From assembly GCA_016929595.1 (NCBI GenBank), contig JAFGIN010000177.1:1-48861 (forward strand): a DNA stretch of 48,861 nt, written 5' to 3'. The stretch's first letter is position 1; each line of letters opens with the position of its first letter. The stretch is from Chitinispirillaceae bacterium. Lineage in GTDB: Bacteria > Fibrobacterota > Chitinivibrionia > Chitinivibrionales > Chitinispirillaceae. Both the position numbers and the translations under genes were made by a program. The notes beneath the pieces are model-generated. The model was given only the letters and a program-made list of their open reading frames with translations. It made no database searches and was not told where the DNA came from. Below are positions 851 to 47,663 of this stretch, piece after piece.

Positions 851-862
851 AATTTATTCCTT

Positions 863-907
863 CAGTAGTCAGTAGTCAGTTGTCAGTAGTCAGTTGTCAG
901 TAATCAG
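863..907. repeat. Degenerate heptamer array CAGTAGT/CAGTTGT, six units
   Basis: Between the large- and small-subunit genes there are six consecutive 7-bp units: CAGTAGT, CAGTAGT, CAGTTGT, CAGTAGT, CAGTTGT, CAGTAAT, followed by CAG. The array lies in the 5' untranslated region of the small-subunit gene. Confidence 0.85.
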
Positions 908-938
908 AGTATCTGCGTATCTGAAACAATTCTCTTTT

Positions 939-995
939 GCTGTTGGTTGTTGGCTATTAGCATTCCTCATTCTTAATTCCTCATTCCTCATTCTC
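939..995. repeat. Two further degenerate heptamer runs
   Basis: Positions 939-959 read GCTGTTG, GTTGTTG, GCTATTA. Positions 961-995 read CATTCCT, CATTCTT, AATTCCT, CATTCCT, CATTCTC. The last unit touches the stop codon of the large-subunit gene (995-997). Confidence 0.7.
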
Positions 996-3978: not shown

Positions 3979-3983
3979 AAAAG

Positions 3984-4625
3984 TTACTCCTTCAGCGAAC
4001 TGAGAATGCGTGTATCCATAGATGAAAATGACTTGTTGATCTTGCTGATGATAATGCAACTGACAAAAATAGCAACAAAAAGATCGAGCAGCACACCCAT
4101 CTCAACAATCATCGGCATTGCACCCATAAGCAGCAATCCGAAAATGAAAATTCCGTTTTCGAGAATCAGGTAGCCTATAACCTGCGAAAGTGCCTTGAAC
4201 CTGGTTGTAACGATGATAAAACCGATTAGAATTGTCGCGATCGATGATGGTACGATGAGTGTTCCTGTATGTTCCTGTGCAAGAGGAATATGACTTGTAA
4301 AAAGAAGAGCAAACACTGTTGCCAGTGCACCAAGAATTATTGATGGGAGAATGCCGATAAGCGGTTCAAATTCACGTTTGATCTGAGCATCCCGCAGCGC
4401 CTGAGACATCATGGATGGAATCACAAAAGCCTTCAGTATCATCGTTGTAAGAACAATCAGAATAGAGGCTAACGAGAAGTGATTATGCGCTAGAAGTGGA
4501 AGAAACCCCAGAAGAAATCCCTGGATTGCAACAATACGGATAACGGTCAGGATCCGGCTTGTTCCTAATGTAAAAAGATTCAGTACCAGAATAATAACCA
4601 GTATTGCGTTTAGAATATTTGTCAT
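3984..4625 (-). CDS. HyfE-like membrane subunit (NuoK-related)
   Basis: Small hydrophobic subunit of 213 aa with about six membrane segments. The segment QVIGYLILENGIFIFGLLL (about residues 145-165) carries the membrane-buried glutamate region shared with HyfE and NuoK. HyfE proteins of hydrogenase-4 complexes are of this length. The gene follows the NuoH-like gene with a 4-bp gap and precedes the HyfF-like gene by 5 bp, as expected for one operon. It probably forms part of the proton path next to the antiporter-like subunits. Confidence 0.88.
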   Translation of the reverse strand: MTNILNAILVIILVLNLFTLGTSRILTVIRIVAIQGFLLGFLPLLAHNHFSLASILIVLTTMILKAFVIPSMMSQALRDAQIKREFEPLIGILPSIILGALATVFALLFTSHIPLAQEHTGTLIVPSSIATILIGFIIVTTRFKALSQVIGYLILENGIFIFGLLLMGAMPMIVEMGVLLDLFVAIFVSCIIISKINKSFSSMDTRILSSLKE

Positions 4626-4629
4626 TATA

Positions 4630-5538
4630 TCACCTTACCAGAAGAATGAAACCAAATGCACAAAAAAGAAGTGCACTGACCAACAGATACGGAACATGCT
4701 GCATCTGCAGCCGCGCCATCACCGATTCCACCACACCAACGAGCACCGCAATTCCCATAACACCGAAAATCTGCAGAAGCCAGTTTATCCAGTCGGACTG
4801 TAATTGAAAAGGCATTAATATATGTAGAAGCACCGTACTGAGAATGAATAGCTTAACTGCAGCAGTATAGGAGATCACACCGAATAATGGTCCGCTGTGA
4901 TCCAGCACCATCACTTCATGAATCATTGTCAGCTCCAGATGTGTATTAGGATCATCAACAGGAATCCTGCAGCTTTCTGCAAGCATTATAATAAATAATC
5001 CTATTGCAATCAAAACTACAGGAGCCGCGATAGCAACAGAAAATCCCTCCATCGGTCCATGCAGCATCGGTGTCAGTGAAAATGCTCCCGATATTTTAAT
5101 CAACACTAAAAATACAAAGAAAAGTGCAGGTTCGGAAAAACAGGCAAATGTTACTTCACGTGCCGACCCCATCCCTTCAAAAGCAGATCCCGTATCAAGA
5201 GCCGCTGCGGTAGTAAAAAACCTTGACAACCCGAACAGATACGCAAACAGGATCAGATCACCTGTAAATGTAACAGGAGCACTGAACGGTCCCATTGGCA
5301 CCAGCAACCCCGCGATGAGAAGCGCAACAAGTGTAACAATCGGACCTATACGAAAGATCCAGGTTGTAGTGGTGCTGTATACCATGCCTTTACGCATCAA
5401 TTTGATAATATCATAATATGGCTGCAGAAATGACGCGCCGACTCTACCACCAAACCAGGCTTTGGTTTTATTGATGATACCCATCAGCAGCGGAGGCATC
5501 AGTAATAATAACAATACATGAATAATACTTGTAATCAT
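4630..5538 (-). CDS. HyfC/NuoH-like membrane anchor subunit
   Basis: Membrane subunit of 302 aa that in complex I-type enzymes docks the peripheral arm and forms the entrance of the proton channel. NuoH/HyfC hallmarks are visible: KAWFGGRVGASFLQPYYDI near residue 30, GSAREVTFACFSEPALFF in the middle, and AESCRIPVDDPNTHLELTM near residue 190. It lies between the second HyfB-like gene and the HyfE-like gene with gaps of 3-4 bp. This subunit should contact the cluster-bearing small subunit. Confidence 0.92.
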   Translation of the reverse strand: MITSIIHVLLLLLMPPLLMGIINKTKAWFGGRVGASFLQPYYDIIKLMRKGMVYSTTTTWIFRIGPIVTLVALLIAGLLVPMGPFSAPVTFTGDLILFAYLFGLSRFFTTAAALDTGSAFEGMGSAREVTFACFSEPALFFVFLVLIKISGAFSLTPMLHGPMEGFSVAIAAPVVLIAIGLFIIMLAESCRIPVDDPNTHLELTMIHEVMVLDHSGPLFGVISYTAAVKLFILSTVLLHILMPFQLQSDWINWLLQIFGVMGIAVLVGVVESVMARLQMQHVPYLLVSALLFCAFGFILLVR

Positions 5539-5541
5539 GAA

Positions 5542-7515
5542 TCAAAACCCCACAATCAAAAGCACAATAATAATTATCAAAATATATAACACATACGTAT
5601 GCGTCTGTCCCATCTGAAACACACGCACCATTGGCAGGTAATGACCGGCAAAACGGAAAAACGGAAGAATTATTTTATCAAGAATAGTATCATTAACCAC
5701 AGATTTGAAGCTGAAACGTCGTGGAAATGCACCACTTATTTCAGGTTTTTGACTTACAGGCCACAAAATGAATCCGAACAATTTGACAAGAGTATCTCCC
5801 GTGGAAGATCCGGTATATTGCATTTTATCAGTCGGCCGTGCATAACCACAATCCCAGGTACCTTTAGCGATATCATTTTTGCCGGGCCAGAGTCTGAAAA
5901 CAAGTAAAAAGAAAATAATTGCTGATAACAACACTGCAGCAATTATGCAAATCAACTGCAGTGGTGCAATGTGCAAAACAGACATCGCAGGTTCAGTACT
6001 GCGGGCCCAGAGATTTGTTGCACCTCCAAGAACATTCACAACTGGAAGTGGGTACACCCCGATAAAGAGGCACAACACCGCACAAATACACATCGGAACC
6101 AGAAGGACCGGAGAAGATTCTTCTGCATGGTTGATCAACTCGTTTCGCGGATTTCCAAGATAGACAGCCCCTGCCAGTTTAACAAATGCAGCAACAGCCA
6201 AAGATCCAATGGTCGCCAGAGCTACAGCACCAAGCGCAGCAAAAGGTAAGCTTTGAACGGCATCTCCCGTAATAGTTTTAAATAATCCTATGTATATCAG
6301 CCATTCACTCATAAATCCATTCATCGGAGGGAGTGCGCAAATTGCAATGGCCCCAAGAACAAAAAGGATCATTGTCAGAGGCATCTTTTTCGCAAGTCCA
6401 CCCATCTGGTTGATATCTCGTGTATGCATGACATGAATGACTGTCCCGGCATTGAAAAAGAGTAGTGATTTAAACAGGCCATGATTTACAACATGCAACA
6501 AAGCTCCACCAAACCCTAAAAATACCCAGTCGCTGCGTCCCTGGTAACGTCCAAGAAGTGCAAGTCCAAGTGCTATACAGATAATGCCGATATTTTCAAT
6601 ACTGCTGTAAGCAAGCATTTTTTTGATGTCATTCTGACTGATTGAAAAAACAATTCCAGCAACACCGCTGATAATCCCAATAATCAGAAGCACACTACCC
6701 CACCAGATGTCTGTCACTGGTATCAGCTGAGTCATTCTTACTATTCCGTAAATTCCCATTTTCAACATTACCCCGGACATAAGGGCAGACACGTGACTTG
6801 GAGCATTCGCATGCGCCCCCGGCAGCCACACATGAAGAGGCATGATTCCGGCTTTGAACCCAAATCCGATCAGCGCAAGAATAAACAGTGTGCCTGCGGC
6901 TTTAGAGGACATGGTGAGAACCGGACTCAATTCAAAAGATCCGGTAAATTGGCTCCATAAAATAAACATTGCAAAAAGACATAGTGTTCCGATATGTGTA
7001 GCGATCAGATAAACCCACCCGGCCTGCCGCACACTGCAGTTGTCATCCTCTACTGTCGCAGCAAAAAATGCTGACAGAGCCATTATTTCCCATGCAACAA
7101 TAAAGAGTATACTGTCCCGGGCCACAACAACAAGCGCCATTGATCCCGCAAGTAAACCAAAAAAAACTCCCAGTTTCTGTCCATTTTCAGGATGTTCAGA
7201 CTGCTTCCAGTACTCAAGACCATACACCGATCCAAGCAGCGGAACTATGAATATCAAACTGAGAAACACGACACTGAGAACATCCAACGCAGCTGAAAAA
7301 TTACCCCAGGGCAATTGCCATCTCAGTTGTATCGAGACTGCGTTTCCAGAAGCAAGAAACAATCCTGCACCAGACAACCCCAGAACAGAACCCACCGCTA
7401 TCAAAAATGTTGTCAGCCTCTGCCCATGATTTGACCTGGAAGAAAACAATAACGCTGGAAAACCACTTACGCACAAAATTGCGATTGCACCAAGAATCAG
7501 ATTAAGACTTACCAT
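5542..7515 (-). CDS. HyfB-like antiporter-type subunit, copy 2
   Basis: Large polytopic protein (657 aa) of the HyfB/NuoL family. The core shows WEIMALSAFFAATVEDDN near residue 140, GFGFKAGIMPLHVWLPGAHA near 220, and KKMLAYSSIENIGII near 300. The C-terminal part has the motif GTWDCGY followed by MQYTGSS, typical of HyfB-like proteins. It is a diverged paralogue of the neighbouring upstream gene and of nearly equal length. The ATG at 7515 is the natural start. There is a 29-bp gap to copy 1 and a 3-bp gap to the NuoH-like gene. Confidence 0.92.
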   Translation of the reverse strand: MVSLNLILGAIAILCVSGFPALLFSSRSNHGQRLTTFLIAVGSVLGLSGAGLFLASGNAVSIQLRWQLPWGNFSAALDVLSVVFLSLIFIVPLLGSVYGLEYWKQSEHPENGQKLGVFFGLLAGSMALVVVARDSILFIVAWEIMALSAFFAATVEDDNCSVRQAGWVYLIATHIGTLCLFAMFILWSQFTGSFELSPVLTMSSKAAGTLFILALIGFGFKAGIMPLHVWLPGAHANAPSHVSALMSGVMLKMGIYGIVRMTQLIPVTDIWWGSVLLIIGIISGVAGIVFSISQNDIKKMLAYSSIENIGIICIALGLALLGRYQGRSDWVFLGFGGALLHVVNHGLFKSLLFFNAGTVIHVMHTRDINQMGGLAKKMPLTMILFVLGAIAICALPPMNGFMSEWLIYIGLFKTITGDAVQSLPFAALGAVALATIGSLAVAAFVKLAGAVYLGNPRNELINHAEESSPVLLVPMCICAVLCLFIGVYPLPVVNVLGGATNLWARSTEPAMSVLHIAPLQLICIIAAVLLSAIIFFLLVFRLWPGKNDIAKGTWDCGYARPTDKMQYTGSSTGDTLVKLFGFILWPVSQKPEISGAFPRRFSFKSVVNDTILDKIILPFFRFAGHYLPMVRVFQMGQTHTYVLYILIIIIVLLIVGF

Positions 7516-7544
7516 GTAAAGAAAACCCTGAATTCAAATACCAG

Positions 7545-9551
7545 TCAATGAATAAACCATTTCTCAAACAACTCTTTGAACGGTATTTGAGTACAAAACA
7601 TCAGAAACAAAGCTATTAAAATGTATAAAATATACTGTTGAATAAGCCCCTGCTGAAACCAGTGGAACCACCCGCTGCTGCGTTTTACAACGTTGCTTAA
7701 AGGAAGCAGCAATCGATCGAGCACCAGCTCATTGACATGACTGCTGAACGTAGCAGATTCCGCGAATACATTGGTGATATGTGGTTTATGTTCACGCGGC
7801 ATGACCACCCATCGAAACATACTAACTACTGAATGTGCAAATGAAGATGCTGTATACTGCATTTTTGGTGAAGGCATCGCATAACCACAATCCCAGGTAC
7901 CGGCTTGCGGTGTCCGTTTATTCAGATTCCGCACAATGAGAAAAATCACTCCTGTTACAAATACCAGCACAACAGCAACAAGTGAAACTGTTGACAGTGG
8001 AGCGACTGCAGCAGGATTGCACAAACTGACACTTTCTATTCCACTCCATACAGAAACAGCCTGAGCAAGAATATTTGTAAAAAGCACAGGTACGAGCCCT
8101 ATAATTATACACAATGCCCCCAGAATTATCATTGGTAATAGCATCACTATCGAAGATTCACGAAAATGGCCGGTTTCATTATTACGCGATAACCCAAGAA
8201 ATACCGCTCCGTACACCTTCACAAAACAAGCTGTTGCCAGTGCGCCGATCATCGCAAGGGCAATAACACTGATCGCAGCGACAAGTCCACCGGGATAGGT
8301 GGCAATGGTATTGAAAAGTCCAAGGTAGATAAACAGTTCACTGATAAAACCGTTCAGAGGTGGTAAACCACAGATTGCTACAGCACCAATTAAAAAGAAC
8401 AGTGCTGTCCATGGCATCACTTTACTGAGCCCCCCCATCTGATCTATCTGACGGGTATGGGTAGAGTGGATTACAGATCCGGCACACAAAAAAAGAAGTG
8501 ACTTGAAAAAGCTGTGGTTCCATACGTGAAGCAGACATCCGGACAATCCCAGGACTGTAATTACAGGTTGATTACCAGCTTGTCCCAGCATGGCAATACC
8601 CAGTCCCATAAGAATTATACCTATGTTTTCCACACTGTGATAAGCAAGAAGACGTTTAAGATCATGTTGTGCAAGTGCAAAAACAACACCCAGTATACCA
8701 CTGACAAACCCAAGTACCAGAAGTATCCCTCCCCACGCGTAAGGCGGATTGGGAAAAAGGGAAAGCCAGCGCACCAGTCCATAGATACCCATTTTTAAAA
8801 CGACACCGGAGAGCATCGCAGAAACATGACTGGGAGAGGTCGCATGTGCAGCCGGTAACCAGAAATGCAGAGGCATTATTCCAGCCTTTAAACCAAACCC
8901 TGTAAGGGCAAGGAAAAAGAAAGTATTCATTACAGCAAAACTCACGCTGCTTTCTGCAACTGTTTGAAGCATATATGAACCGGTCACTAACTTCCAGAGT
9001 GTAAACATTGCAAAAAGAGCAAGTGTACCGATATGAGCTGAGATGAGATAGATCCATCCGGCATCCCTGCTCTCACGATTACAATCCTCTATTGACACAA
9101 GAAAAAATGCTGCGAGCGCCATGATTTCCCACCCCAGCAGAAAGGCCATTGCGTGTTTACTGACAACCAGCAGAGCCATCCCTGCGACCAGGAGTCCCCA
9201 GAAAATTGCCAGCTTACGGGAATTTGACGGATGCCTGTCATGTGCCCAGTATTCAAGTCCGTAAATGGAACCAAGCATTCCCATAAGAAAAACCGGTATA
9301 AGAAAAAATGCACTCAAAGTATCAATACCAGTATAACAGGAGCCCATATTCAACCAGGGAAATGAAACCATATCGCTACTGGTCTGCGAAAAAAAAGTTG
9401 TCAATGCACCATAAATTCCTGTCAGTGCACCAGCGCTCATCATTGCAACGGAGATCCTTTGCGCGATTAATGATCCTCGCCTGAGGAACAGCCCTGGTAC
9501 TCCGCTAAGAGCAGTAATGATAAAAGCGATATGAACGAAATAGATAGGCAT
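7545..9551 (-). CDS. HyfB-like antiporter-type subunit, copy 1
   Basis: First gene of the Ehr operon, 668 aa, HyfB/NuoL family. It has the same signature blocks as copy 2: WEIMALAAFFLVSIEDCN, GFGLKAGIMPLHFWLPAAHA, KRLLAYHSVENIGII and the C-terminal GTWDCGY...MQYTASS. The start ATG at 9551 has an AGGTAA element 8 bases upstream. Two HyfB-like proteins plus one HyfF-like protein give three antiporter-type modules. That number matches Hyf of E. coli (HyfB, D, F), but here the second HyfB stands where HyfD would be. Confidence 0.92.
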   Translation of the reverse strand: MPIYFVHIAFIITALSGVPGLFLRRGSLIAQRISVAMMSAGALTGIYGALTTFFSQTSSDMVSFPWLNMGSCYTGIDTLSAFFLIPVFLMGMLGSIYGLEYWAHDRHPSNSRKLAIFWGLLVAGMALLVVSKHAMAFLLGWEIMALAAFFLVSIEDCNRESRDAGWIYLISAHIGTLALFAMFTLWKLVTGSYMLQTVAESSVSFAVMNTFFFLALTGFGLKAGIMPLHFWLPAAHATSPSHVSAMLSGVVLKMGIYGLVRWLSLFPNPPYAWGGILLVLGFVSGILGVVFALAQHDLKRLLAYHSVENIGIILMGLGIAMLGQAGNQPVITVLGLSGCLLHVWNHSFFKSLLFLCAGSVIHSTHTRQIDQMGGLSKVMPWTALFFLIGAVAICGLPPLNGFISELFIYLGLFNTIATYPGGLVAAISVIALAMIGALATACFVKVYGAVFLGLSRNNETGHFRESSIVMLLPMIILGALCIIIGLVPVLFTNILAQAVSVWSGIESVSLCNPAAVAPLSTVSLVAVVLVFVTGVIFLIVRNLNKRTPQAGTWDCGYAMPSPKMQYTASSFAHSVVSMFRWVVMPREHKPHITNVFAESATFSSHVNELVLDRLLLPLSNVVKRSSGWFHWFQQGLIQQYILYILIALFLMFCTQIPFKELFEKWFIH

Positions 9552-9659: not shown

Positions 9660-10337
9660 TCAGGAAGAAATGACTCTCTGAGCCTTTTGCAGTATTTCGA
9701 GAAGAGTTTCGCGAGAAGCCTTACTTTGAACAGCCGCCTTAAAAGCTGCATTCTGAAGGGAATAACTGAGATGTGACAGCAGTTGCAGATGTACCTTGAC
9801 GGTCGGGCTGATGATCGTAAAAAGAATCGATACCGGGATTCCATCTGCAGCATTGAATTCAACTGGTTGCTTTAGAAAACAAAGGGAAATTGCAGGTTTT
9901 GACCCGTTAAGAATAAGCGGATAACGTATATGAGGAATTGCGATCCCTTCACCGATTCCGGTAGATCCCATTTTTTCCCGCGCGAGCAGAATCTCAAGTA
10001 GAAACTCAGGATCGAAATCAACAGGTAGTTTAAATGTTTTTACAACATTCCGCAGCACCGATTCTCTGTCGGTTCCCGAGACGTCGTAAGTTATGCTTCC
10101 ATCTTTGAGTGCATCAAGGAAAACTGAAGTTGACAAATAGCTGTCATTATTTTCCTTAAACGTTTCCGTTGAGACTTTTATCCCCATCATAGTCGCCCAT
10201 TCGAGCAGTTCGACCCGATTGAACTGGTATTCTTCACCTATTTTGTAGTAAGGGACACTGTTCTGGGCGATTAAACGATAGACTTTTTTTTCAGAAACAC
10301 TTAGAAGTCTTGCGACATCTTTAACATTGATCATCAT
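9660..10337 (-). CDS. HTH (excisionase-type) domain fused to PTS EIIA-like domain
   Basis: About 225 aa if started at the first of two adjacent ATG codons (10337); an in-frame TTG at 10370 is also possible. Residues 1-50 form a MerR/excisionase-type DNA-binding domain (INVKDVARLLSVSEKKVYRLI). The remainder is a fructose/nitrogen-type PTS EIIA domain with the segment GEGIAIPHIRYP, whose histidine (about residue 136) would be the phosphorylation site. No transporter EIIB/EIIC lies nearby, so a regulatory role is more likely than sugar uptake. It lies 108 bp upstream of the Ehr operon on the same strand and may control it or be co-transcribed. Enzyme I of a PTS is encoded at 35-37 kb. Confidence 0.82.
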   Translation of the reverse strand: MMINVKDVARLLSVSEKKVYRLIAQNSVPYYKIGEEYQFNRVELLEWATMMGIKVSTETFKENNDSYLSTSVFLDALKDGSITYDVSGTDRESVLRNVVKTFKLPVDFDPEFLLEILLAREKMGSTGIGEGIAIPHIRYPLILNGSKPAISLCFLKQPVEFNAADGIPVSILFTIISPTVKVHLQLLSHLSYSLQNAAFKAAVQSKASRETLLEILQKAQRVISS

Positions 10338-10768
10338 ATACAGCAGGCCATTCCAAACCTTAAACCGCAATGTGCAAAATAGAACAATTTTTGCCCGTTT
10401 AACAGACGTTTAGCTTCTTCCAGAGATCTTTTCGGGGATCAGAGTTTTAGCGTTTTCCAGTTGTTTTGAGTTCTGTTCAAAACCATTGCGATTGAAGCGA
10501 TAATATACATCCAGGCAAAATTCAAATAAAGAAAATACTCTGAACAACTGGTACATTTTCTGGTAATTTTCCATCCAGAATGAATTTTAACGTGAAATTG
10601 CAAGGCATTTAGATTCCTTGTGATTAAAAAAACCTCTTAATTTGATGGGTTCCATACTATGCATTTAATATTTTCTATCGTTTGAAAGATGTTTTTTTAT
10701 CCGGACAGCATTAATAATATGCAGGTGCTATTCGAAATCTGGATTTTGAACTTTCCAGGGAACTTTGA
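10338..10768. other. Divergent intergenic region, 431 bp
   Basis: AT-rich spacer between the leftward EIIA-like gene and the rightward redox gene, expected to hold both promoters. I see no convincing paired -35/-10 boxes, no riboswitch motif and no open frame worth calling. Confidence 0.5.
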
Positions 10769-35138: not shown

Positions 35139-36890
35139 TCACACATCAACAGAGATCGGCAACTGCTGCAGCACATTACCAAGTAAACGCCGGTTAAGCG
35201 TTTTAAGCCAGTGAGCCATGTCTTCTGTTGATTCGATTGCATCTATGTGAGAAGTACTTTCGGCAGCTTCAGCATAACTGACATTTGCGATAATCTCCTT
35301 GATCAGTGGTATGTTCCTTGGTATAACACTGAACCGTTTCAAACCAAGCCCTACCAGCAACACTGTATGCATTGGATTTCCTGCCATTTCACCGCATATA
35401 GATAATGACATACCATTGTCATTGGCACATTTAATTGTATTACGTATGATTCTGAGGAATGCCGGCTCGACAGGATTATAGAGATAATTGACTTTAGCGT
35501 TATTCCTGTCGGCAGCACTGAGATACTGTATAAGATCATTAGTCCCGACAGATGCGAAATCTATTTCACGCATGAAAGTGTTCATTTCCAGAATCGCGAG
35601 GGGAACCTCAAAAAGTACTCCAAGTCGTGGCACCGGGATGCCAATTTTACGTGCCACCTGAACGATAAAAGTCTTTGCCTCAAGCCACTCCTGAAGTGTT
35701 GTTACCATAGGCACCATTATGGAATAGTTGTACCCGACACCGGCTTTGAGAATAGCTGCAACCTGTGTTTCGAACAGATCTTTACGCTCCAGAAAAATTC
35801 GAATCGCACGCCACCCCATAAAAGGATTGAATTCCGCAGGCATATCAAAAAACTGCGGGATCTTATCTCCCCCGATATCCATCAGACGAATCACACAATG
35901 ACGTTTTCCAACCTTATCGAGAATCCGGTGGTAATATTCGTACTGAAGATCCTCTGAGGGCATCTCCTTACGATTTGACAATAAATATTCTGTCCTCACA
36001 AGTCCAATGCCATCAGCACCATAATCATTTGCTTCTACAATATCGTCCGGAAGTGATATATTCGCAAGCACTTCGATCTGCACTCCATCGGTGGTATAAA
36101 CAGGCCTTCTCCACTTTGCCTTAAGATTGTTAACCACCTCTTCATCAATACCTGTTTTTTTATAGCGGGACAGTACCGTTACCGTTGGACGAACGTAAAC
36201 AACACCCTTTTCAGCATCTACCAGGACCGGATCTCCGGGCCGTATTGAATCTGAAATATTGACAACCCCGGAAATTACCGGAATCGAATAGGATCTGGCT
36301 AAAATTGCTGCATGTGAAGTTTTTCCGCCACTGGTGGTTATGACAGCCTTAATTTTTGCTTTATCGTAGGAGAGAATATCTGATGGAGTAAACGAACGTA
36401 AAACGATCAATACCACCGGGCCGATAAACGTCTTGGTGCGTCCATCGTCTTCATACAGGTATGAGATCAGTTTTTCGCACACCTCAACCATATCAGAACT
36501 GCGCTCTTTAAAATAGGCTGTTCCCGAGGATTCAAAGCGCTTAATAAAATCCTCAGAAACCATGCGAATTGAGGTTTCGAGATCGTACATCTTGGTTGAA
36601 ATAGTCTCAACCACCTGGCCAATAAAGGCAGGATCATCTAAAATGTGCTGATAAATGTTAAGAATTGAAGCATCAATCGTGGATGAACCGCCATTATCAA
36701 CGGTTAACTGATGATAACTTTTTTTTGCTTTTTCTCGAATCTCATTGAACCGCATAATCTCATCGCCGACATCCTGCCTGGCGATGGTAACTGTCGATGA
36801 GGGCTGAACAGCTCTACCGACAAAATAAGCAGCCCCCATACCCCAGCCTGAAACAACGGGCAAACCGTTCAGGCGTATCTCTTTTCTCAT
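35139..36890 (-). CDS. ptsI: PTS Enzyme I (phosphoenolpyruvate-protein phosphotransferase)
   Basis: Transfers phosphate from PEP to HPr. 583 aa, the normal length. The phosphorylated histidine is H193 in GGKTSHAAILARS. PEP-binding segments ADGIGLVRTEYLL, RLMDIGGDKIPQF, GWRAIRIFLER, ASVGTNDLIQYLSAADR and SICGEMAGNP are all present. HPr and sugar permeases are not in the window. Its start overlaps the end of the phosphorylase-like gene by 4 bp, so the two are translationally coupled. With the HTH-EIIA gene at 10 kb this hints at a regulatory PTS. Confidence 0.95.
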   Translation of the reverse strand: MRKEIRLNGLPVVSGWGMGAAYFVGRAVQPSSTVTIARQDVGDEIMRFNEIREKAKKSYHQLTVDNGGSSTIDASILNIYQHILDDPAFIGQVVETISTKMYDLETSIRMVSEDFIKRFESSGTAYFKERSSDMVEVCEKLISYLYEDDGRTKTFIGPVVLIVLRSFTPSDILSYDKAKIKAVITTSGGKTSHAAILARSYSIPVISGVVNISDSIRPGDPVLVDAEKGVVYVRPTVTVLSRYKKTGIDEEVVNNLKAKWRRPVYTTDGVQIEVLANISLPDDIVEANDYGADGIGLVRTEYLLSNRKEMPSEDLQYEYYHRILDKVGKRHCVIRLMDIGGDKIPQFFDMPAEFNPFMGWRAIRIFLERKDLFETQVAAILKAGVGYNYSIMVPMVTTLQEWLEAKTFIVQVARKIGIPVPRLGVLFEVPLAILEMNTFMREIDFASVGTNDLIQYLSAADRNNAKVNYLYNPVEPAFLRIIRNTIKCANDNGMSLSICGEMAGNPMHTVLLVGLGLKRFSVIPRNIPLIKEIIANVSYAEAAESTSHIDAIESTEDMAHWLKTLNRRLLGNVLQQLPISVDV

Positions 36891-39355
36891 AATAATGGGA
36901 CTTTCCAGATGTTACCAGCGTATTCTCTGACAGTTCGATCGCTTGAAAACCATCCGATACGCGCAATGTTTAATATACATTTTTGTGCCCATTTATGAGA
37001 AACTTTATATTCGACATCAACCAATTCCTGTGTTCTGATATAATCACTGAAATCGGTAAGTACATAAAACCTGTCCAGATCACGCAATGTGGAAATAAGC
37101 GGTAATATCGCATTTCCATCAACCAGCGTGGATAACGTTTCGTCAAGTAATTTGAAAATTTCAACAAGCCTCGGATCAGCATTGATTATTTCACAAGGCT
37201 TAGTCTGCCCAAGCTCAGAAAGCGCACTTCCGGACATTCCGAAAATAAACATATTCTCAATACCAATTTTGCTTGAAATTTCGATATTGGTACCCGACCT
37301 GCTGCCAACAATCAATGCTCCATTGAAGGCAAACTTCATGTTAAAGGTCGCAGCAGCCTCCATCGATGAAGTTGAAATCTGCTCTGAGATATCGGCAGAT
37401 GAAACCAACGATTCAGCCCAGCTCATCCCGAAATTGGGTATAAAAACAACTTTCATGATATCTTTCATATCAGGATCATTGTTTACAAGCTCTGAAGTCA
37501 CGTTGATAAGATACACGATCTGTTTAGCAAGAAAATCACCGGGAGATGATTTACCAGCAAAGATATGAAGCCTTCGGGTTTTCGGTACCACACCCGCTTT
37601 AGCATTTAAGTAACGATAAAGGATATTGAAGATGTGTAACACCTGACGTTTATAAGGATGAATTTTGCCACATTGAATATCAAAAAGTGCCGATTCAAAT
37701 GTAGTAAAACTACTGTCGAGTTGTAATTTATCAACAAGCGCTTTCTTCGATTTTGCTTTCAGATCACAAAAAGCATCAAGGAATGAGCTATCATTACTGA
37801 AATTCTCCAGTTTCGATAACTCTTCAGGATTTGTAATCCATTTATCACCGATTGAACTATTGATCAGCTCTGATAAAGGGCTGTTTGCACAGAGCACCCA
37901 TCGACGGTGAGCAATGCCTGTTGATAAGTTACTGAATTTATAGGGAAGATATCTGCAATACTGAGGAAATATTTTCTTTTTCATAACTTCAGTTTGTTCG
38001 TTCGAAACACCATTAACGGCAAACGAACCTATTACCGCAAGATTTGCCAGTCTGATCCGTTTTACTTCTCCTTCCTCAATGAGCGACAGTTCTCTCACCA
38101 TTTCAGGATCACTAGTATAGTTTCTTCGAATCTCTTCCAGATGAACCTGGTTGATTTCAAATATGATCTGCATGTGACGAGGCAACATCTGTGCAACTTT
38201 ATAAACAGGCCAGGTTTCAAGATTTTCACGTAATACTGCATAGCTGGTATAAGCAAACACATTACGCGTTATCTGCCACGCCTTGTCCCAGGGGACATTC
38301 TCATTATCAATCAATATCCGCATAAGTTCGGGTATTGCAAGCGCACACCTGCTGCCACTCAACTGAATGATTACCTTTTGATCAAAATCAGACAGACTTT
38401 TATTTTTTACTTTGTAACGACGAATTATGTCCTGAAGTGCTGCGCTGATAAAAAAGAACTGCTGCTTCATTCGCAATTCAGTCGCCCGACGAACATCCTC
38501 TTCGGGAAAGAGTACCTTGGTAATTCTTCCCAATTGTGACTTTTCCTCACAGGCGCGAACATAATCACCGTGATTAAGATAATCCGGAAGAAACTCCTCT
38601 GATGCGCGGGCAGACCACAATCGTAATGTATTGACCACATTGTTACGGTACCCAGGAACTGGAACATCATAGGGAATTGCGTGCACCTGCTCAGCACTCT
38701 GCCACTCGAAAGCACTAAACGAGGAGGTAGTGTCAATAGGCTGACAATCCCCGCCAAAGTTAACTGTGCAGGCGTATTCCGGTCGAATTATCTCCCAGGG
38801 ATGCCCCCGATGAAGCCAGTCGTAGGGTCGCTCAACCTGATTGCCGTTCCTGATATCCTGTTGAAATTGAGCATAATCATAACGAAGTCCATAGGCCAGT
38901 GCAGGAATCCCAAGGGTTGCCATCGACTCAAGGTAACAAACTGCAGTCCGTGCCTTACCTGAGTTTCCAATCTCAAAATCATCCTCCTGACCATAAAGAT
39001 CTTCGATCGTCAGACCGAACGCTTTAACTGCAGAAGAAATCTCCTTCTCAATCCCAAGATTGATCAGATTGTTGCGTAGATTCTTACCAAAGATGTATTC
39101 CATCGACAAAAAATAAACCCGCCGAACATTACCTTCGTGGTATGCTCCCTGGGTCTTAATCCAATTATCGACCATCTCACTTCGAACCACGTATGCCAGT
39201 GCCATGTATTTATCATAAGACGTAGCGGTTGTATCATCTTTAGCCAAAAAATAACGGAGATACCTGTAATAGTTCTCCTTCAGGTTTCTATTTTCCATGG
39301 CACTCCTGAAAATGCTATAACTTTCGTAATTTAATTTTTTTGAAATACGATTCAC
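36887..39355 (-). CDS. Glycogen phosphorylase-like protein with altered active site
   Basis: Protein of 822 aa, full family length, aligned to alpha-glucan phosphorylase from end to end. The PLP lysine is kept (K674 in ATFNMKF). Many other conserved motifs are changed: GNGGLGRLAAC reads GNSGKARTAVC (130-140), PNDN reads PEED (284-287), NDTHP reads SGSRC (333-337), TNHTVL reads TSYAVL (370-375), SHAVNG reads SFAVNG, KRIHEYKR reads GKIHPYKR, and EASGTGNMKF reads EAAATFNMKF. It may therefore be a pseudo-phosphorylase or have another substrate. It is the first gene of the unit with ptsI. In E. coli, HPr binds and regulates glycogen phosphorylase, which makes this pairing notable. Confidence 0.88.
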   Translation of the reverse strand: MNRISKKLNYESYSIFRSAMENRNLKENYYRYLRYFLAKDDTTATSYDKYMALAYVVRSEMVDNWIKTQGAYHEGNVRRVYFLSMEYIFGKNLRNNLINLGIEKEISSAVKAFGLTIEDLYGQEDDFEIGNSGKARTAVCYLESMATLGIPALAYGLRYDYAQFQQDIRNGNQVERPYDWLHRGHPWEIIRPEYACTVNFGGDCQPIDTTSSFSAFEWQSAEQVHAIPYDVPVPGYRNNVVNTLRLWSARASEEFLPDYLNHGDYVRACEEKSQLGRITKVLFPEEDVRRATELRMKQQFFFISAALQDIIRRYKVKNKSLSDFDQKVIIQLSGSRCALAIPELMRILIDNENVPWDKAWQITRNVFAYTSYAVLRENLETWPVYKVAQMLPRHMQIIFEINQVHLEEIRRNYTSDPEMVRELSLIEEGEVKRIRLANLAVIGSFAVNGVSNEQTEVMKKKIFPQYCRYLPYKFSNLSTGIAHRRWVLCANSPLSELINSSIGDKWITNPEELSKLENFSNDSSFLDAFCDLKAKSKKALVDKLQLDSSFTTFESALFDIQCGKIHPYKRQVLHIFNILYRYLNAKAGVVPKTRRLHIFAGKSSPGDFLAKQIVYLINVTSELVNNDPDMKDIMKVVFIPNFGMSWAESLVSSADISEQISTSSMEAAATFNMKFAFNGALIVGSRSGTNIEISSKIGIENMFIFGMSGSALSELGQTKPCEIINADPRLVEIFKLLDETLSTLVDGNAILPLISTLRDLDRFYVLTDFSDYIRTQELVDVEYKVSHKWAQKCILNIARIGWFSSDRTVREYAGNIWKVPLL

Positions 39356-39892
39356 AGACGATTGAATATTTCAAGTATTTCATTTTATAAAAAAGTGAAG
39401 GAAAAGACACCACTTTTTTACTCAATAACGTCTGATCAGATCGCCTTATATAACATTAAAGTATACATCTGTAACAATAACAATGCACTAGAAAATTGTT
39501 TGTTTCACTTACATCCTGAAAAAAAAATTTACTCATAAAAATCTCTGTTTTACAAAAAGATCATAACTGATTGTCTGAATTAATTAAGGGGATAACAGTC
39601 CATACCAATTATGAAACCTTGATTCAGCATTTATTATAATGTTATTTTGTTAAAAAAATGATAACTAATTTTAATAGAAGCAAAAATTACTCCAACATTT
39701 TTCCCTGACGTACCTAATAAACACAGGATGAATTGCATCAAGTCCTCTTCACTTCATAAATCAGAAAACAACAACAGTTTAAGAAAATCCACATGAAAAG
39801 TTTTTTATATATCTGACCTATATTAAAATAATATTTTATTGTGTATTCGTATAACACGAAAGTATATTATGGGCCTTAACGTTCTTTTCTAT
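39356..39892. other. AT-rich intergenic region, 537 bp
   Basis: Very AT-rich spacer between the phosphorylase-like gene and tRNA-Ser. It should hold the promoters for both. No coding frame, repeat array or strong hairpin seen. Confidence 0.5.
39839..39868 (+). promoter_or_regulatory. Possible promoter of tRNA-Ser
   Basis: TTGTGT (39839-39844) and TATATT (39863-39868) are 18 bp apart and end 24 bp before the tRNA. Weak consensus in AT-rich DNA, so a tentative call. Confidence 0.3.
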
Positions 39893-39980
39893 GGAGGGGT
39901 GGCCGAGTTGGCTTAAGGCACAGGTTTGCTAAACCTGCGTAGGGGTAACCCTACCGGAGGTTCGAATCCTCTCCCCTCCG
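39893..39980 (+). tRNA. tRNA-Ser (anticodon GCT)
   Basis: 88 nt. The acceptor stem pairs GGAGGGG (39893-39899) with CCCCTCC (39973-39979), and the discriminator is G. The D-arm is GGCCGAGTTGGCTTAAGGC. The anticodon loop TTGCTAA has GCT at 39928-39930. A long variable arm (GTAGGGGTAACCCTAC) marks it as a class II tRNA, and the T-loop is GGTTCGAATCC. CCA is not encoded. A T-run follows at once. Confidence 0.97.
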
Positions 39981-40347
39981 TTTTTCCTCTTTTAACCTAC
40001 ACATTCAGTATCTTCCGCATCTAAACAGTGTCAGATCTTAAGTGAAGGAACTTTTCTGTGCCCTTTGCTTTTCAAATCGGTTCGTGTATCCCTGAATACC
40101 CCATTTTAAAACTGTAGTGACGTATAGCTTTCTCTTATACTCTCTTTCTTTGTCACTGGTAGTATCCGCCTTCCTCATTTCGCGATAGAAAGAAAAATTG
40201 CATCGTTCTTTTGTGACCATATATATGAAAAGAGGTACTTAACTGATAAATTCTCAGATTTAACACACTTTTAATTGCACTATTATAGTAGATCACATTA
40301 GTTTATATAAGTACACAAATTTAAGAAACGATTAAAGGGACATACTC
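39981..40347. other. Intergenic region between tRNA-Ser and the VWA gene
   Basis: A 367-bp spacer. A 60-codon minus-strand frame lies inside it but lacks a ribosome-binding site and a family match. No repeat of the tRNA 3' end is seen nearby that would mark an integrated element. Confidence 0.4.
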
Positions 40348-42416: not shown

Positions 42417-45251
42417 TCACGTCTGCATCTGCACCTTCAGACCCCTTGGCAGCTGCTCGCCAAACACGCTGCTTTTTTCTTCATCATCAAGATTTCCGCC
42501 ACTGGTGATCAATTCGATAAAATGGTGAGCGGCCTTATGTTTTTTCATGCTGGTTATTACATTTTCGCGGATTGTATCATCAATATCACGATACCGGTCG
42601 TTACACTTACGACAGAGCTGCATCAGAGCAAGAAATGCTGTTGCGTTTGGTTTCGCTTTATCGATTATAAATTGAGCCCATCTGCCTGCAGCCTCCTGTG
42701 AAACGAGTTCATTAAGCGGACCATACATTGGAACCCGTGCTCCGAACCGTCCAATTGCCCACACTGCCGCATCAGCCAGTACATCACCTCTCGATAGTAC
42801 CTTCTGTATAGCTAAAGAACCTAGTTCCTCTTTTTGTCCTGATTTCAGATATTCCAGCGAACCAAGCAATCTCCAGATTTCGCATTGCTCCTGAACACCA
42901 TATTTAATTTCACTTTTTGCTTTCTGTTTTCTTTTACTATCAATATCCCTGAACATGTTCCTGAACGCTGCTATAAGCGGTATCGCCAGCGCCTGCTGCT
43001 GTCCGCTGTTCAACCCTCCGGCTATCCTGCGCCATAACACCCACCATTCTGCTGTACAGGACTGGTTTTTCTGGTGAACGACTCCTTTTTGAAAAAGCAA
43101 CCATGTCTGCTTGATTCTCCAGTCATCAACAGCATAACCGTACCCCGGACGAAGTGAAAAACCAAGTAAATTCAACCAGCGTGCTTCATATACAGGATCC
43201 ACACTTCTGCACAACTGCTGGTCCAGGATAATTTCCCAGAATGCCCGCAACAAAGATGGAGGCCACTGACTCCTGTCAGCATCCGTTGCAGTCTCGAGAT
43301 TTCTCACAAGATTCTGTGGAGTGAGATTCTCGGGATTACGCCTTTGAAATGTATCAGCAATCAAAGTGCGGCACCGTTCAACCATTTCCGAATCCACAAC
43401 CCCCTGCGATTCACCATCCGCTCTATGAGCAGTGATATCAGTTCTTGTAGCTGACCGTACATCGAACTGAAGTTTCCACTCCCTGTTTCCGACAGTCTCA
43501 CTACACCACAAGTCAAGTGTTCCTATTTCTGTGAGTTTTACATTAAGAATTACTCGTGCTGTGTCCGCTTCAAGCTTCCTTCCGGAACGCAGGACAGTTC
43601 GGATCGGAGGCAGTGCATACATCTCCAGTGGATCGGGCTCGACAAGATCCCCCGGATTATCGGTTGTACGGCGACTTGACACAAACAGAGGAAATTCAAC
43701 TGGTTGTCTTATAAGAAGATCGAAGTGTCGATCCTTAAGATCAACATGCTCCCCCTCCTGAAGTCCTGCCGGAGCAAGACAGAATGCCTGCATTCCCTTA
43801 TCCGTTTCAACACCGATATAATAAGACCGGGCTAGTCCTGCGTTTATGCGGACTCCGCCCCCCCTTCTTACCAGACCATAATAGGCAGCCCCTTGCGACA
43901 CAGCCAGTTCCGGGCTCTTATTTTCAAAAACTATCGGTTCCCATGGTATTTCATTGCTGCTGTACCATGATCGTAATACGTCAAGTAATCTTCTCTTTAT
44001 TTTTGATGACGTAAGTACACCGCCATTAAAAAGTACAATGTCGGGACGGGATGGGTCGCCCTGTTTATTCTGTGAAAATTGTAATGCAATATTCCTGTGT
44101 GAAGTTAAAAAAGAGGCCAGATACCTTGTTACCGCAGCATCAGAAGCATACGGGAGACCAAACTCCTGAAACCCTGATTGACGACACGAAGGGACAGCAT
44201 TTATATCGGTAAAAGGGAAAAATCCATCGATAAGCACCTTTTCAACTTCGTCGCGATCGAGTTCCACCTGAATGCTTCCACCAATCAGGGAACTCCCGCT
44301 TCCAGGAATTGAAATGGTGTACTTCCCGGGTGCCTCATCACTAAACAGTGTTTCTTTCGCTTTCCTGCAAACACCAACAAGTGTCCCAAATTGCCGGGGT
44401 GAAAGTTTTATACTCTTTAGTTTTACCCGCTCTACATGATATGCAAGAGCCAGGTCAATATTATCACCACCAAGGATAAGATGATCTCCCACCGCAATAC
44501 GATAAAACTGCACCGTACCATCACTGTTCCCTCTTACCTGGATCATGGTGAAATCGGTTGTACCACCACCGATATCACAAATCAGAATTTTTTGACCGGG
44601 CTGCACTTTGTTACGCCAGTCTTTTGCATGAACCTGAATCCATGCATAAAAAGCAGCTTGCGGCTCTTCAAGAAGAACGATACGTTTCATCTCAGCCTGT
44701 GAAGCTGCTTCAACGGTCAACTCCCGTGCCACTTCATCAAATGATGCCGGAACCGTTATGATAAGATCCTGTTCTTCAAAGGGGTATTCAGGATAGTTGT
44801 AATTCCATGCTTCCCGGAGGTGATAAAGGTATTTCGATGATGCTGTAACCGGTGAGATCTTTTCCACATCTTCCGCCGCATGCCATGGCAGCAGCGGTGC
44901 CGTTCTGTCAACTCCTGCATGGCTCAGCCATGATTTTGCAGACGAGACCATACGTCCCGGAACTTGGGTGCCGTGCTCACGTGCGAAAATACCGGTAATA
45001 CAGTTTTTTGCGGATTTGTCCCAGGGCATTGCAAGTGAAGCTTCCGCAAACTCTGATTCTGCGACATCATAATAGAATGATGGATATAGTTGCTGCGCAT
45101 CAATCTCACCCGGAGCGATGACCTGCTTGACAAAGAAATCCTTTATCTGGATAGGCGAAGTTTCAGTATCGACATACGATACTGAAATATTTGTTGTCCC
45201 CAGATCGACTCCAATTATGTATCTGGATTTTTTCAGTTCATTTTCGTCCAT
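42417..45251 (-). CDS. Hsp70-family protein, long form with C-terminal extension
   Basis: About 944 aa from the ATG at 45251 (MDENELKKSRYIIGVDLGTTN); a longer frame would overlap the upstream gene. The N-terminal Hsp70 ATPase domain shows GVDLGTTNISVSY, ICDIGGGTTDFTMI and GGDNIDLALAYH, with VLFNGGVLTS near 420. A short beta region follows, then about 350 residues rich in helices (GFSLRPGYGYAVDDWRIKQTW) that match the DUF3731-type extension of such Hsp70 homologues. Lid and substrate regions of classical DnaK are not recognised. It lies 8 bp after the paralogous gene and converges on the VWA gene. Confidence 0.87.
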   Translation of the reverse strand: MDENELKKSRYIIGVDLGTTNISVSYVDTETSPIQIKDFFVKQVIAPGEIDAQQLYPSFYYDVAESEFAEASLAMPWDKSAKNCITGIFAREHGTQVPGRMVSSAKSWLSHAGVDRTAPLLPWHAAEDVEKISPVTASSKYLYHLREAWNYNYPEYPFEEQDLIITVPASFDEVARELTVEAASQAEMKRIVLLEEPQAAFYAWIQVHAKDWRNKVQPGQKILICDIGGGTTDFTMIQVRGNSDGTVQFYRIAVGDHLILGGDNIDLALAYHVERVKLKSIKLSPRQFGTLVGVCRKAKETLFSDEAPGKYTISIPGSGSSLIGGSIQVELDRDEVEKVLIDGFFPFTDINAVPSCRQSGFQEFGLPYASDAAVTRYLASFLTSHRNIALQFSQNKQGDPSRPDIVLFNGGVLTSSKIKRRLLDVLRSWYSSNEIPWEPIVFENKSPELAVSQGAAYYGLVRRGGGVRINAGLARSYYIGVETDKGMQAFCLAPAGLQEGEHVDLKDRHFDLLIRQPVEFPLFVSSRRTTDNPGDLVEPDPLEMYALPPIRTVLRSGRKLEADTARVILNVKLTEIGTLDLWCSETVGNREWKLQFDVRSATRTDITAHRADGESQGVVDSEMVERCRTLIADTFQRRNPENLTPQNLVRNLETATDADRSQWPPSLLRAFWEIILDQQLCRSVDPVYEARWLNLLGFSLRPGYGYAVDDWRIKQTWLLFQKGVVHQKNQSCTAEWWVLWRRIAGGLNSGQQQALAIPLIAAFRNMFRDIDSKRKQKAKSEIKYGVQEQCEIWRLLGSLEYLKSGQKEELGSLAIQKVLSRGDVLADAAVWAIGRFGARVPMYGPLNELVSQEAAGRWAQFIIDKAKPNATAFLALMQLCRKCNDRYRDIDDTIRENVITSMKKHKAAHHFIELITSGGNLDDEEKSSVFGEQLPRGLKVQMQT

Positions 45252-45259
45252 TACTACGT

Positions 45260-47047
45260 TCAATCCTTCTTGTCTCTTACACTGAACTCGAGTTTCCATG
45301 TGTCCTCTGATACTGTACTATTGCAACTCAGTTCAAACATGCCAAGTTCAGTTATCCTCGAATGGAAACGAACCGGCACATACCCTTCTGCAAATTTTTC
45401 ACTGCCCTTGAGCTGTGATTCAAGTGAGTCGGTTTCCATAAACTGCGGTTCAGTACAGTTTGGTATCAGATCACCGGGAGCATCATGTGTTCTTTCTGAT
45501 GAACTGAAAAAACGGAATTTCACCGGTTCTCCAACAACCAGCCCGATCTCATTTCCCGGCACATCTGTCTCAGTACCTTCTTCCATGCCGAAAGGAACAA
45601 CACACAATGCGTTTAACGGGCGCTCAAAACCTGGAACCGCCGGCCCTGCAGTTTCAATCCCGATATAGTAAGAGCGCGCTGTTCCTCCACGAATACGAAT
45701 ACCTTTTCCACGTTTTGCAAACGCGTAATAGGCTGCACCCCTTGCGACTGCGTAATCATAGTCAGGATTTTTAGAGAGCATATCAACAGGTTCATTACTA
45801 AACCATTGTGAAACGGTGTTGAGCAACTGCAATCTGAATACATCCGATTTGAACACGCCACCGGTAAACAGAAGGTGCGTTGGCCTGACCGGAACACCAT
45901 TCTCTCCATGGGCACCTAAAAACTGGGCCAGATGTCTTGTTATTGCTGTATCAGACTCAAATGGTAATCCTATCTCTCTGAAACCTGATGCAACTTTACG
46001 GCTCGGACGAGCATCACTGTCGCATGATGGAAAGAAGCCTTCACGAAGCAGTTTTTCAACTTCAGCCGCCACAAGATCGACCGAAACCGTTCCCCCGATC
46101 AGTTTCGAACCTCGCCCCAGAATCGCAACCGGATGTTTTTCGGGGTGTTTTTCCGATAACAACTGTTCCTTTGCAGCACGACATGCATGCCACAGTGACA
46201 CCGACTGCCATGCATCAAGCTGCACCCCTTTATCGGCAAACATCATCCGGGCGTAATGCGCAATGGTCAAATCCATATTGTCGCCACCGACAAGGATATG
46301 ATTTCCAACCGCGACTCTTTTCAGAAACAGATCGCCCTCCTCCTGATCGACACCAATCAGCGTGAAATCAGTAGTTCCACCGCCGACATCACAAATGAGA
46401 AGTATATCTCCAAGCCTCAGTTGTGAACGCCAGTTGTCACCGGCATCAGAAAGCCATGAATAAACCGTCGCCTGCGGTTCTTCAAGCAGGACAATATCTG
46501 CGGGGAAACCCGCTTTCTGCGCAGCCTCCATGGTAAGCTCACGTGCACTGGCATCAAATGACGCCGGCACTGTGAGAACAACATCCTGAATGTTAAACGG
46601 TGCATCAGGAAACTGATTATTCCACACAGCTGCGCAATATTCCAGATATCTCCTTGACGCTTCAACCGGTGAAATTTTTCGTACGTCAGCGGGAGCATTC
46701 CAGGGAAGAATTGCATCTCTCCTATCAACTTTACTGTGTGCAAGCCACGATTTGGCAGCAGTAACGGCCCGTGCGGGCACATCGGCAGTCTGTTTTCTGG
46801 CAAGTTCGCCAATGACATAATTTCTTTTCTTATCCCAGGGGAGACCATACACCCCCTTCTCCGTTTCAGCATCAGTTGCCAGATAACAAAATGACGGCAG
46901 TGATGTGCGCTGTTCAAGTGTTGATGCACTTGTTAATTGTGGGATCTGAAGAAGCTGTATTGAATGCTTCTCATCATTTTTGTCAACATACGCAATAACG
47001 GTATTAGTAGTCCCGAGATCTATGCCAATTGCATAACGGGCATCCAT
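45260..47047 (-). CDS. Hsp70-family protein, short form
   Basis: Protein of 595 aa. The ATPase domain has AIGIDLGTTNTVIAYVD, ICDVGGGTTDFTLIG, GGDNMDLTIAHYA and LLFTGGVFKSDVF. The rest is a beta-rich region homologous to the middle of the longer neighbour (GTARSYYIGIETAG, FRFFSSSERTHDAPGDL). It is much shorter in the C-terminus than DnaK and has no typical helical lid. Both Hsp70 proteins share the pattern LPWDK and KSWLAHS, so they arose from one duplication. No dnaJ or grpE gene is nearby. Confidence 0.9.
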   Translation of the reverse strand: MDARYAIGIDLGTTNTVIAYVDKNDEKHSIQLLQIPQLTSASTLEQRTSLPSFCYLATDAETEKGVYGLPWDKKRNYVIGELARKQTADVPARAVTAAKSWLAHSKVDRRDAILPWNAPADVRKISPVEASRRYLEYCAAVWNNQFPDAPFNIQDVVLTVPASFDASARELTMEAAQKAGFPADIVLLEEPQATVYSWLSDAGDNWRSQLRLGDILLICDVGGGTTDFTLIGVDQEEGDLFLKRVAVGNHILVGGDNMDLTIAHYARMMFADKGVQLDAWQSVSLWHACRAAKEQLLSEKHPEKHPVAILGRGSKLIGGTVSVDLVAAEVEKLLREGFFPSCDSDARPSRKVASGFREIGLPFESDTAITRHLAQFLGAHGENGVPVRPTHLLFTGGVFKSDVFRLQLLNTVSQWFSNEPVDMLSKNPDYDYAVARGAAYYAFAKRGKGIRIRGGTARSYYIGIETAGPAVPGFERPLNALCVVPFGMEEGTETDVPGNEIGLVVGEPVKFRFFSSSERTHDAPGDLIPNCTEPQFMETDSLESQLKGSEKFAEGYVPVRFHSRITELGMFELSCNSTVSEDTWKLEFSVRDKKD

Positions 47048-47129: not shown

Positions 47130-47663
47130 TCAGGGCAGTTCCACCTCTACAGGTGCAATAATAGTTGCCGATTCATCACTCCCCTGCCACTGCGGCAGTT
47201 CCAGACGTGTGGCATTCCATCCCCGGTGACGAACAACGCCATTAAAAGGTGGCTTTCCGGTCACATTTCCGCTTAAACGATAAAATGATGGATCAAAACC
47301 GGCAGGAACCGTCACCTGCTTACCTTCTTCATTTTCGGAAATTGGATGAGGAGCGCATACCCTGTCCAGTACACTTTTACAATCACGATGTACATCACGT
47401 ACCGCCGCCCCGATCTGAGCATCAGAATAAGTATCGATCGGTTCCATAAGAAAGTCGACAAGTCGTCCTTCACGCTGAAATGCAGCCAGAAGCTGAATAG
47501 AATCGCTCTGCTTTTTTTTAACTGGCTTTATCTCCTTTTTCACCACCTCCGGCTCGGAAGGAGGCAGATCAGAGAAAAACTCAGCCACTTTATCGGAAAA
47601 ACGTTTATTGAAAATTATCCAGAAAAATGATCGCAGTGCAACTTCAATGCGGTTCATATTCAT
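47130..47663 (-). CDS. DUF2760 family protein
   Basis: Protein of 177 aa. The DUF2760 pattern is clear: LLAAFQREGRLVDFLMEPIDTYSDAQIGAAVRDVHRDCKSVLD, VTVPAGFDPSFYRLSGNV, PPFNGVVRHRGW, and the end IIAPVEVEL. Such proteins are usually encoded just upstream of one or two Hsp70 homologues, as here. The function is not known; a co-chaperone or client-recognition role is only a guess from context. First gene of the module, 82 bp before the short Hsp70. Confidence 0.88.
   Translation of the reverse strand: MNMNRIEVALRSFFWIIFNKRFSDKVAEFFSDLPPSEPEVVKKEIKPVKKKQSDSIQLLAAFQREGRLVDFLMEPIDTYSDAQIGAAVRDVHRDCKSVLDRVCAPHPISENEEGKQVTVPAGFDPSFYRLSGNVTGKPPFNGVVRHRGWNATRLELPQWQGSDESATIIAPVEVELP

Follow-up and report, generated by a model that had tools for sequence, protein, structure and literature searches.

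A 48,861-nucleotide contig of a Chitinispirillaceae bacterium (JAFGIN010000177.1 of assembly GCA_016929595.1, a 6.6-Mb draft genome, 95% complete; hereafter the window) encodes, just upstream of the gene for phosphotransferase system (PTS) Enzyme I (ptsI), a protein derived from the GT35 phosphorylases whose active site is extensively altered. On phylogenetic grounds, this protein is a member of a monophyletic paralogue family of the order Chitinivibrionales, for which we use the name PPL, and not a degraded one-off. Its retention next to ptsI since the order arose, the two genes forming one unit, suggests that the protein was recruited to regulate the phosphorelay, and we lean, with slightly better than even confidence, towards PPL being a regulatory pseudoenzyme that works together with Enzyme I within a PTS of the regulatory kind. 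The original prediction, made from the window alone, had proposed a probable pseudo-phosphorylase coupled to Enzyme I, and both elements of that proposal are supported by the comparative data described below.

A phosphorylase paralogue linked to Enzyme I

The PPL of the window matches the phosphorylase models over its full length, as predicted (TIGR02093, 872 bits, cut-off 553; PF00343, 808 bits). Its predicted fold superposes on R-state glycogen phosphorylase with a Foldseek TM-score of 0.89-0.90; the model has a mean pLDDT of 74, below 50 in segment 659-687, and no active-site geometry was taken from it. We surveyed 40 genomes of the order and 127 genomes of the phylum outside it. A search of 60 relatives revealed that most genomes of the order carry two kinds of GT35 protein, namely a canonical copy, approximately 40% identical to the PPL of the window, and a PPL orthologue sharing 48-65% identity with it (lower in the family labelled f7). 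PPL was detected in 39 of the 40 genomes, spanning seven families, the exception (G013) being 82% complete. Because orthologues occur in 39 genomes, chance or an assembly artefact was ruled out as the origin of the gene. The tree unites the PPL and f7 copies in a single clade (SH-aLRT support 100, stem 1.03) that is separate from the one holding the canonical copies of the order (support 100). No PPL was recognised among the 127 genomes outside the order, where the best of the matches listed scored 987 bits versus 1190-1450 for near-full-length non-f7 PPLs; an f7-like degenerate copy would score below the canonical ones in this search and was not specifically excluded. Duplicate loci (L001, L002 and L032-L036) were removed, and a 425-aa fragment (L149; 64% identity to canonical copies, 43% to PPL) was excluded from both sets.

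It had also been asked whether a normal glgP exists elsewhere. Canonical GlgP is present in 33 of the 40 genomes of the order and was not found in seven drafts (G000, G006, G016, G017, G022, G024 and G030). In the assembly of the window, no second GT35 gene was found, leaving PPL as the only one found there. Glycogen synthase exceeded the cut-off in 30 of the 60 genomes, including that of the window, so glycogen metabolism is likely in this organism.

The linkage to Enzyme I proved to be universal wherever it could be assessed. In all 36 genomes with sequence available, Enzyme I is encoded directly downstream of PPL on the same strand; these comprise 35 genomes and G009, in which a contig break divides PPL and the C-terminal piece precedes Enzyme I. 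Three further genomes (G003, G018 and G036) fall outside this count, their contigs terminating at or within PPL. Among 25 of the junctions, 14 have ATGA and three have TAATG, the others being short gaps. The 4-bp overlap noted in the original prediction is real and recurs in orthologues, and it points to probable translational coupling of the two genes. Genes beyond the pair vary, except for GTP cyclohydrolase I and one more downstream gene, which accompany the pair in 14 of 28 sequences.

The linked Enzyme I proteins form one clade (support 100) and have the domain architecture and catalytic residues of Enzyme I. The catalytic residues H189, R296, R332, E431, D455 and C502 are retained in every row covering each (37 rows from 36 genomes, G022 being represented twice; C502 is covered in 28). 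These proteins have no N-terminal extension of the kind present on a 785-aa paralogue in G000. Twelve genomes of the order have a single Enzyme I N-domain, and in 11 of them, as judged by eye, it belongs to the PPL-linked protein, the exception again being G013, where no PPL was found. Direct orthology between the linked Enzyme I and the ptsH-linked Enzyme I of other orders was not established in the Enzyme I tree, whose branches are long. Residues presumed to contact HPr differ in the linked proteins and in ptsHI-type proteins alike, and are thus uninformative.

In genomes from outside the order, counted by eye, the genes for HPr and Enzyme I are neighbours in all but one of 20. Within it, by the same kind of count, HPr lies on a contig lacking Enzyme I in all 38 genomes with HPr, and Enzyme I follows PPL, so ptsI is now found apart from ptsH and together with PPL. 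Each of the 22 HPr loci examined, which come from 19 genomes (17 within the order), has an MlaD-like gene immediately before that for HPr, and the full-length HPr sequences read, encoded away from PPL-ptsI, keep His15 and Ser46. EIIA_2 was found in 60 of 60 genomes and HPr in 58. PTS_EIIC (PF02378) was found in none of the 60, in a search that covered this permease family and not other EII permease families, and EIIA-man exceeded the cut-off in none. With the EIIC family and EIIA-man being the EII families searched besides EIIA_2, the PTS of these genomes looks like a regulatory PTS.

Several observations concern other PTS genes. G000 has five Enzyme I N-domain matches, nine EIIA_2 and one HPr, such that several Enzyme I paralogues seem to share a single HPr. 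In G014 (L205), the gene of an unlinked Enzyme I paralogue (3291-4919) closely precedes that of a protein of 939 aa (272-3088) which, judging by its N-terminal motif only, may resemble maltooligosyl trehalose synthase. GlgA occurs near an unlinked paralogue in G016, G010, G007 and G014, with no consistent operon among them. In the window itself, a 236-aa helix-turn-helix protein fused to an EIIA_2 domain (9660-10370, minus strand) adjoins a membrane NADH dehydrogenase/Mrp-type cluster (4630-9551), and is possibly a PTS-controlled regulator of this energy-converting complex.

Active-site changes and the location of constraint

Changes in the PPL of the window were scored against human liver phosphorylase, with rabbit/human residue numbering. 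The loops and motifs named as altered in the original prediction indeed differ. The loop changes are G134S, L136K and G137A, together with D283E, N284D and F285V in the 280s loop; elsewhere we observed N376S/H377Y/T378A, GSFAVNG in place of GSHAVNG, K568G/R569K/E572P and S674A/G675A/G677F, as well as D339G, H341R, P342C, N484T and Y613D. The lysine that binds pyridoxal phosphate (PLP), K680, is retained, again as predicted.

We compared PPL with 107 canonical phosphorylases, including E. coli GlgP and MalP, for few of which activity has been assayed. Eleven positions known as contacts of PLP, phosphate or glucose are invariant in this set. The PPL of the window alters seven of them (H377Y, N484T, K568G, R569K, Y648F, S674A and G675A) and retains Y573, K574, T676 and K680. 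Not one of the 107 changes any of the 11, which argues against the altered residues being common in active members. A similar picture emerged from the 144 columns invariant in the canonical set: the PPL of the window differs at 44, compared with one for E. coli GlgP and four for MalP; other PPLs differ at 32-49, and the f7 copies at 67-88. The protein is classed here as a GT35 homologue by descent and not as a phosphorylase by function.

The extent of the changes varies across the family. Among PPLs of family f1, the mean pairwise identity at the chemistry positions is 0.53 versus 0.79 for the 144 canonical-invariant columns, a value reached by only a 0.001 fraction of random draws. The 11 PPLs outside f1 and f7 hold the chemistry positions better (for example, H377 in 8 and K680 in 11), and three deep PPLs retain seven of eight core residues. 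The five f7 PPLs (L132-L136), the most degenerate of the family, have arginine at the PLP lysine in three cases (G034, G029 and G038), and all five nonetheless remain of full length and precede ptsI. Both deep and shallow PPLs share newly fixed residues: K136 (29/32), E283 (34/34), G339 (34/34), R341 (27/34), C342 (32/34), S376 (31/34), A378 (32/34), D613 (33/33) and S691 (32/32). By what is known of the fold, these sit around the cleft; they were chosen post hoc and carry no p-value. We read this pattern as early remodelling of the cleft, after which catalysis may have been released in several lineages while the protein was kept.

PPL is under purifying selection, with a ratio of nonsynonymous to synonymous substitution rates (dN/dS) of 0.04-0.15 in close pairs with computable dS, compared with 0.06-0.14 for the canonical gene. 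It thus shows the hallmarks of a pseudoenzyme, namely active-site loss in a conserved protein under purifying selection. A degraded pseudogene was ruled out by this selection, the full length and the distribution.

We located the constraint by comparing identity by region in 18 genomes carrying both PPL and a canonical copy. Overall mean identity falls from 0.677 in the canonical copies to 0.565 in PPL. At the catalytic columns (n=91), it falls from 0.915 to 0.659 (fraction of mask circular shifts, 0.001), whereas at the dimer and allosteric columns (n=135) it is 0.646 and 0.645, respectively (0.048); no difference from background was seen for the glycogen storage region. Compared in this manner, constraint is gone from the catalytic site of PPL but not from its dimer/allosteric surface. 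Individual allosteric-site residues are kept (for example, R309 in 34/34, R310 in 33/34 and Q71 in 30/32), and a candidate phospho-ligand site is therefore conceivable.

Proposed regulation of the phosphorelay and competing explanations

For a partner gene with altered chemistry, a kept dimer surface and an obligate linkage to Enzyme I, regulation of the relay is the explanation that we favour. A more specific version, which we propose tentatively and hold at somewhat less than even odds, is that a glycogen phosphorylase was converted throughout the order into a dedicated allosteric subunit of Enzyme I, through which a carbon-reserve or energy signal sets the input step of the relay. Under the regulatory role in general, a phosphorylase paralogue in the ancestor of the order would have become linked to ptsI and lost the need for phosphorolysis, retaining its dimeric allosteric body. 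The PPL dimer, made in step with Enzyme I through translational coupling, would associate with Enzyme I, and possibly with HPr too. It would read a carbon or energy metabolite signal via the retained allosteric/dimer surface or the remodelled cleft, and would thereby raise or lower the flow of phosphate from phosphoenolpyruvate through Enzyme I and HPr to EIIA_2-type regulators. The earlier suggestion of a sensor of the glycogen reserve is possible within this scheme.

The regulatory role draws on genomic linkage, sequence conservation and altered chemistry, and several points weigh against it. That PPL binds Enzyme I or HPr, which ligand it reads, which way it exerts control and that it lacks activity are all matters that we infer. 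K680 is retained in all 32 non-f7 PPLs covering the position which, with the core residues kept in the three deep PPLs, possibly reflects ancestral or residual activity. In PPL, conservation remains higher at the catalytic columns than elsewhere (0.659 vs 0.526). The dimer/allosteric result is borderline at 0.048, and the limits of this and the other regions were set from what is known of the rabbit enzyme. Covariation of evolutionary rates between PPL and Enzyme I did not add support: with RpoB as control and f7 left out, the partial r was 0.19-0.20 (p 0.13-0.19). It had been 0.82-0.97 with canonical GlgP as control (20 genomes), and 0.77 (p 0.0015) with RpoB when f7, in which RpoB is also accelerated, was included. 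GyrB performed poorly as a second control, its r with RpoB being -0.04 including f7 and 0.46-0.51 without it. Samples were set by the loci available, at 20 for the GlgP control and then 16, 12 and 15 of the 39 PPL genomes. We thus dropped rate covariation as evidence for the pairing, since it vanished under the RpoB control outside f7.

The strongest competitor of the regulatory role is that PPL remains an active, PLP-dependent enzyme whose specificity for acceptor or glucan has changed, since PPLs outside f7 retain K680 and the deep ones keep most core residues. K574 (29/34) and T676 (30/32) are also largely retained, and the fixed G339, C342, D613 and S691 could form a new substrate site. 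We nevertheless consider such an enzyme unlikely: the phosphate- and glucose-contact residues are lost and variable among close relatives, with no fixed new state, and the PLP lysine itself has gone from three of the five f7 copies. Less probable again, in our view, is that PPL regulates glycogen metabolism rather than Enzyme I, by titrating HPr or forming mixed dimers with GlgP, with the ptsI link only setting its dose. The kept dimer region, the frequent presence of canonical GlgP and the binding of HPr by E. coli GlgP, as described in PMC11046441 and PMC4029488, would fit this explanation; however, PPL is kept in the seven drafts, that of the window included, in which no canonical GlgP was found, and its linkage is to ptsI and not to ptsH or glg genes. 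The universal linkage with overlapping or near start and stop codons could also mean that PPL is a mere leader gene setting ptsI translation, its protein a relic. This is very improbable given a purifying selection like that of the canonical gene, the full length maintained in all five f7 species and the long persistence across seven families.

The regulatory role of PPL can be set beside known systems. Compared with GT35 phosphorylases (GlgP, MalP and the animal enzymes), PPL is alike in full-length homology, predicted fold, PLP lysine and dimer/allosteric columns, and differs in its chemistry positions, its invariant columns and its genetic tie to ptsI. The control of E. coli GlgP by HPr, invoked in the original prediction, is documented in PMC11046441 and PMC4029488, and PDB entry 9s8k, by its title, concerns the same pair. 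Both pairings join a PTS protein to a phosphorylase fold; however, in E. coli HPr regulates a phosphorylase that is itself active, whereas in PPL-Enzyme I the phosphorylase-like protein is altered and encoded with Enzyme I. Moreover, glgP of E. coli lies in the glg cluster and ptsHI-crr elsewhere, not in one operon. PTS-Ntr and other permease-less systems, such as that of Brucella (PMC2937029), likewise have Enzyme I, HPr and EIIA_2 without PTS_EIIC, but no phosphorylase-like partner of Enzyme I was found described for them in the literature read. The open-licence PMC literature yielded no description of a Chitinispirillum PTS, of pseudoenzyme or inactive phosphorylases, or of ptsI-phosphorylase operons, and term searches in the main texts of two papers, on the Chitinispirillum genome (PMC4814513) and on Fibrobacteres phylogenomics (PMC4704652), turned up nothing on PTS, HPr or Enzyme I.

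PPL would thus be a pseudoenzyme family without a match in these searches and, if the regulatory role is true, the HPr-phosphorylase link of E. coli would be one case of a wider theme. In our judgement, the control of Enzyme I activity is poorly settled for PTSs that carry no sugar; with a GT35-derived partner invariably encoded beside Enzyme I, such systems would gain a concrete candidate for this input.

Gene model and neighbourhood

The reading frame and its position in the original prediction stood, on the minus strand, but its GTG start probably did not. The downstream ATG, residue 20 of the 822-aa frame, is the likelier start because AGGAG closely precedes it and a methionine occurs at or adjoining this position in most orthologues; the shorter gene is thus probably the correct one (Table 1).

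Table 1 Features of the PPL-ptsI unit in the window
Feature	Position	Strand	Remarks
PPL, GT35-derived pseudo-phosphorylase (favoured reading)	36887..39298	-	probable start ATG 39298, 803 aa
PPL, frame as first reported	36887-39355	-	opens with GTG at 39355, 822 aa
AGGAG, likely ribosome-binding site of PPL	39303..39307	-	read from sequence just 5' of ATG 39298
PLP-lysine codon of PPL	37334..37336	-	residue 674 of the 822-aa frame, K680 in rabbit/human numbering
ATGA, PPL stop and ptsI start	36887..36890	-	4-bp overlap, read from sequence
ptsI, Enzyme I	35139..36890	-	583 aa; TIGR01417 438 bits, cut-off 342; catalytic residues intact

Upstream of PPL lie a 0.6-kb gap without a called gene and, on the opposite strand, a tRNA-Ser (39892-39981). 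Promoter and terminator scans gave no excess over shuffled sequence. Further along the window, two adjacent, overlapping and divergent Hsp70-type genes (42417-47047, minus strand) encode proteins of 960 aa, with a DUF3731 domain, and 595 aa, and a DUF2760 gene (47130-47663) lies upstream of them. Finally, most genomes of the Fibrobacterales genus g33 in family f8 (G064, G065 and G070-G075) have two weaker phosphorylase matches (best E-values of about 1e-156 to 1e-162) and not one strong match, as if the phosphorylase gene were split or interrupted.

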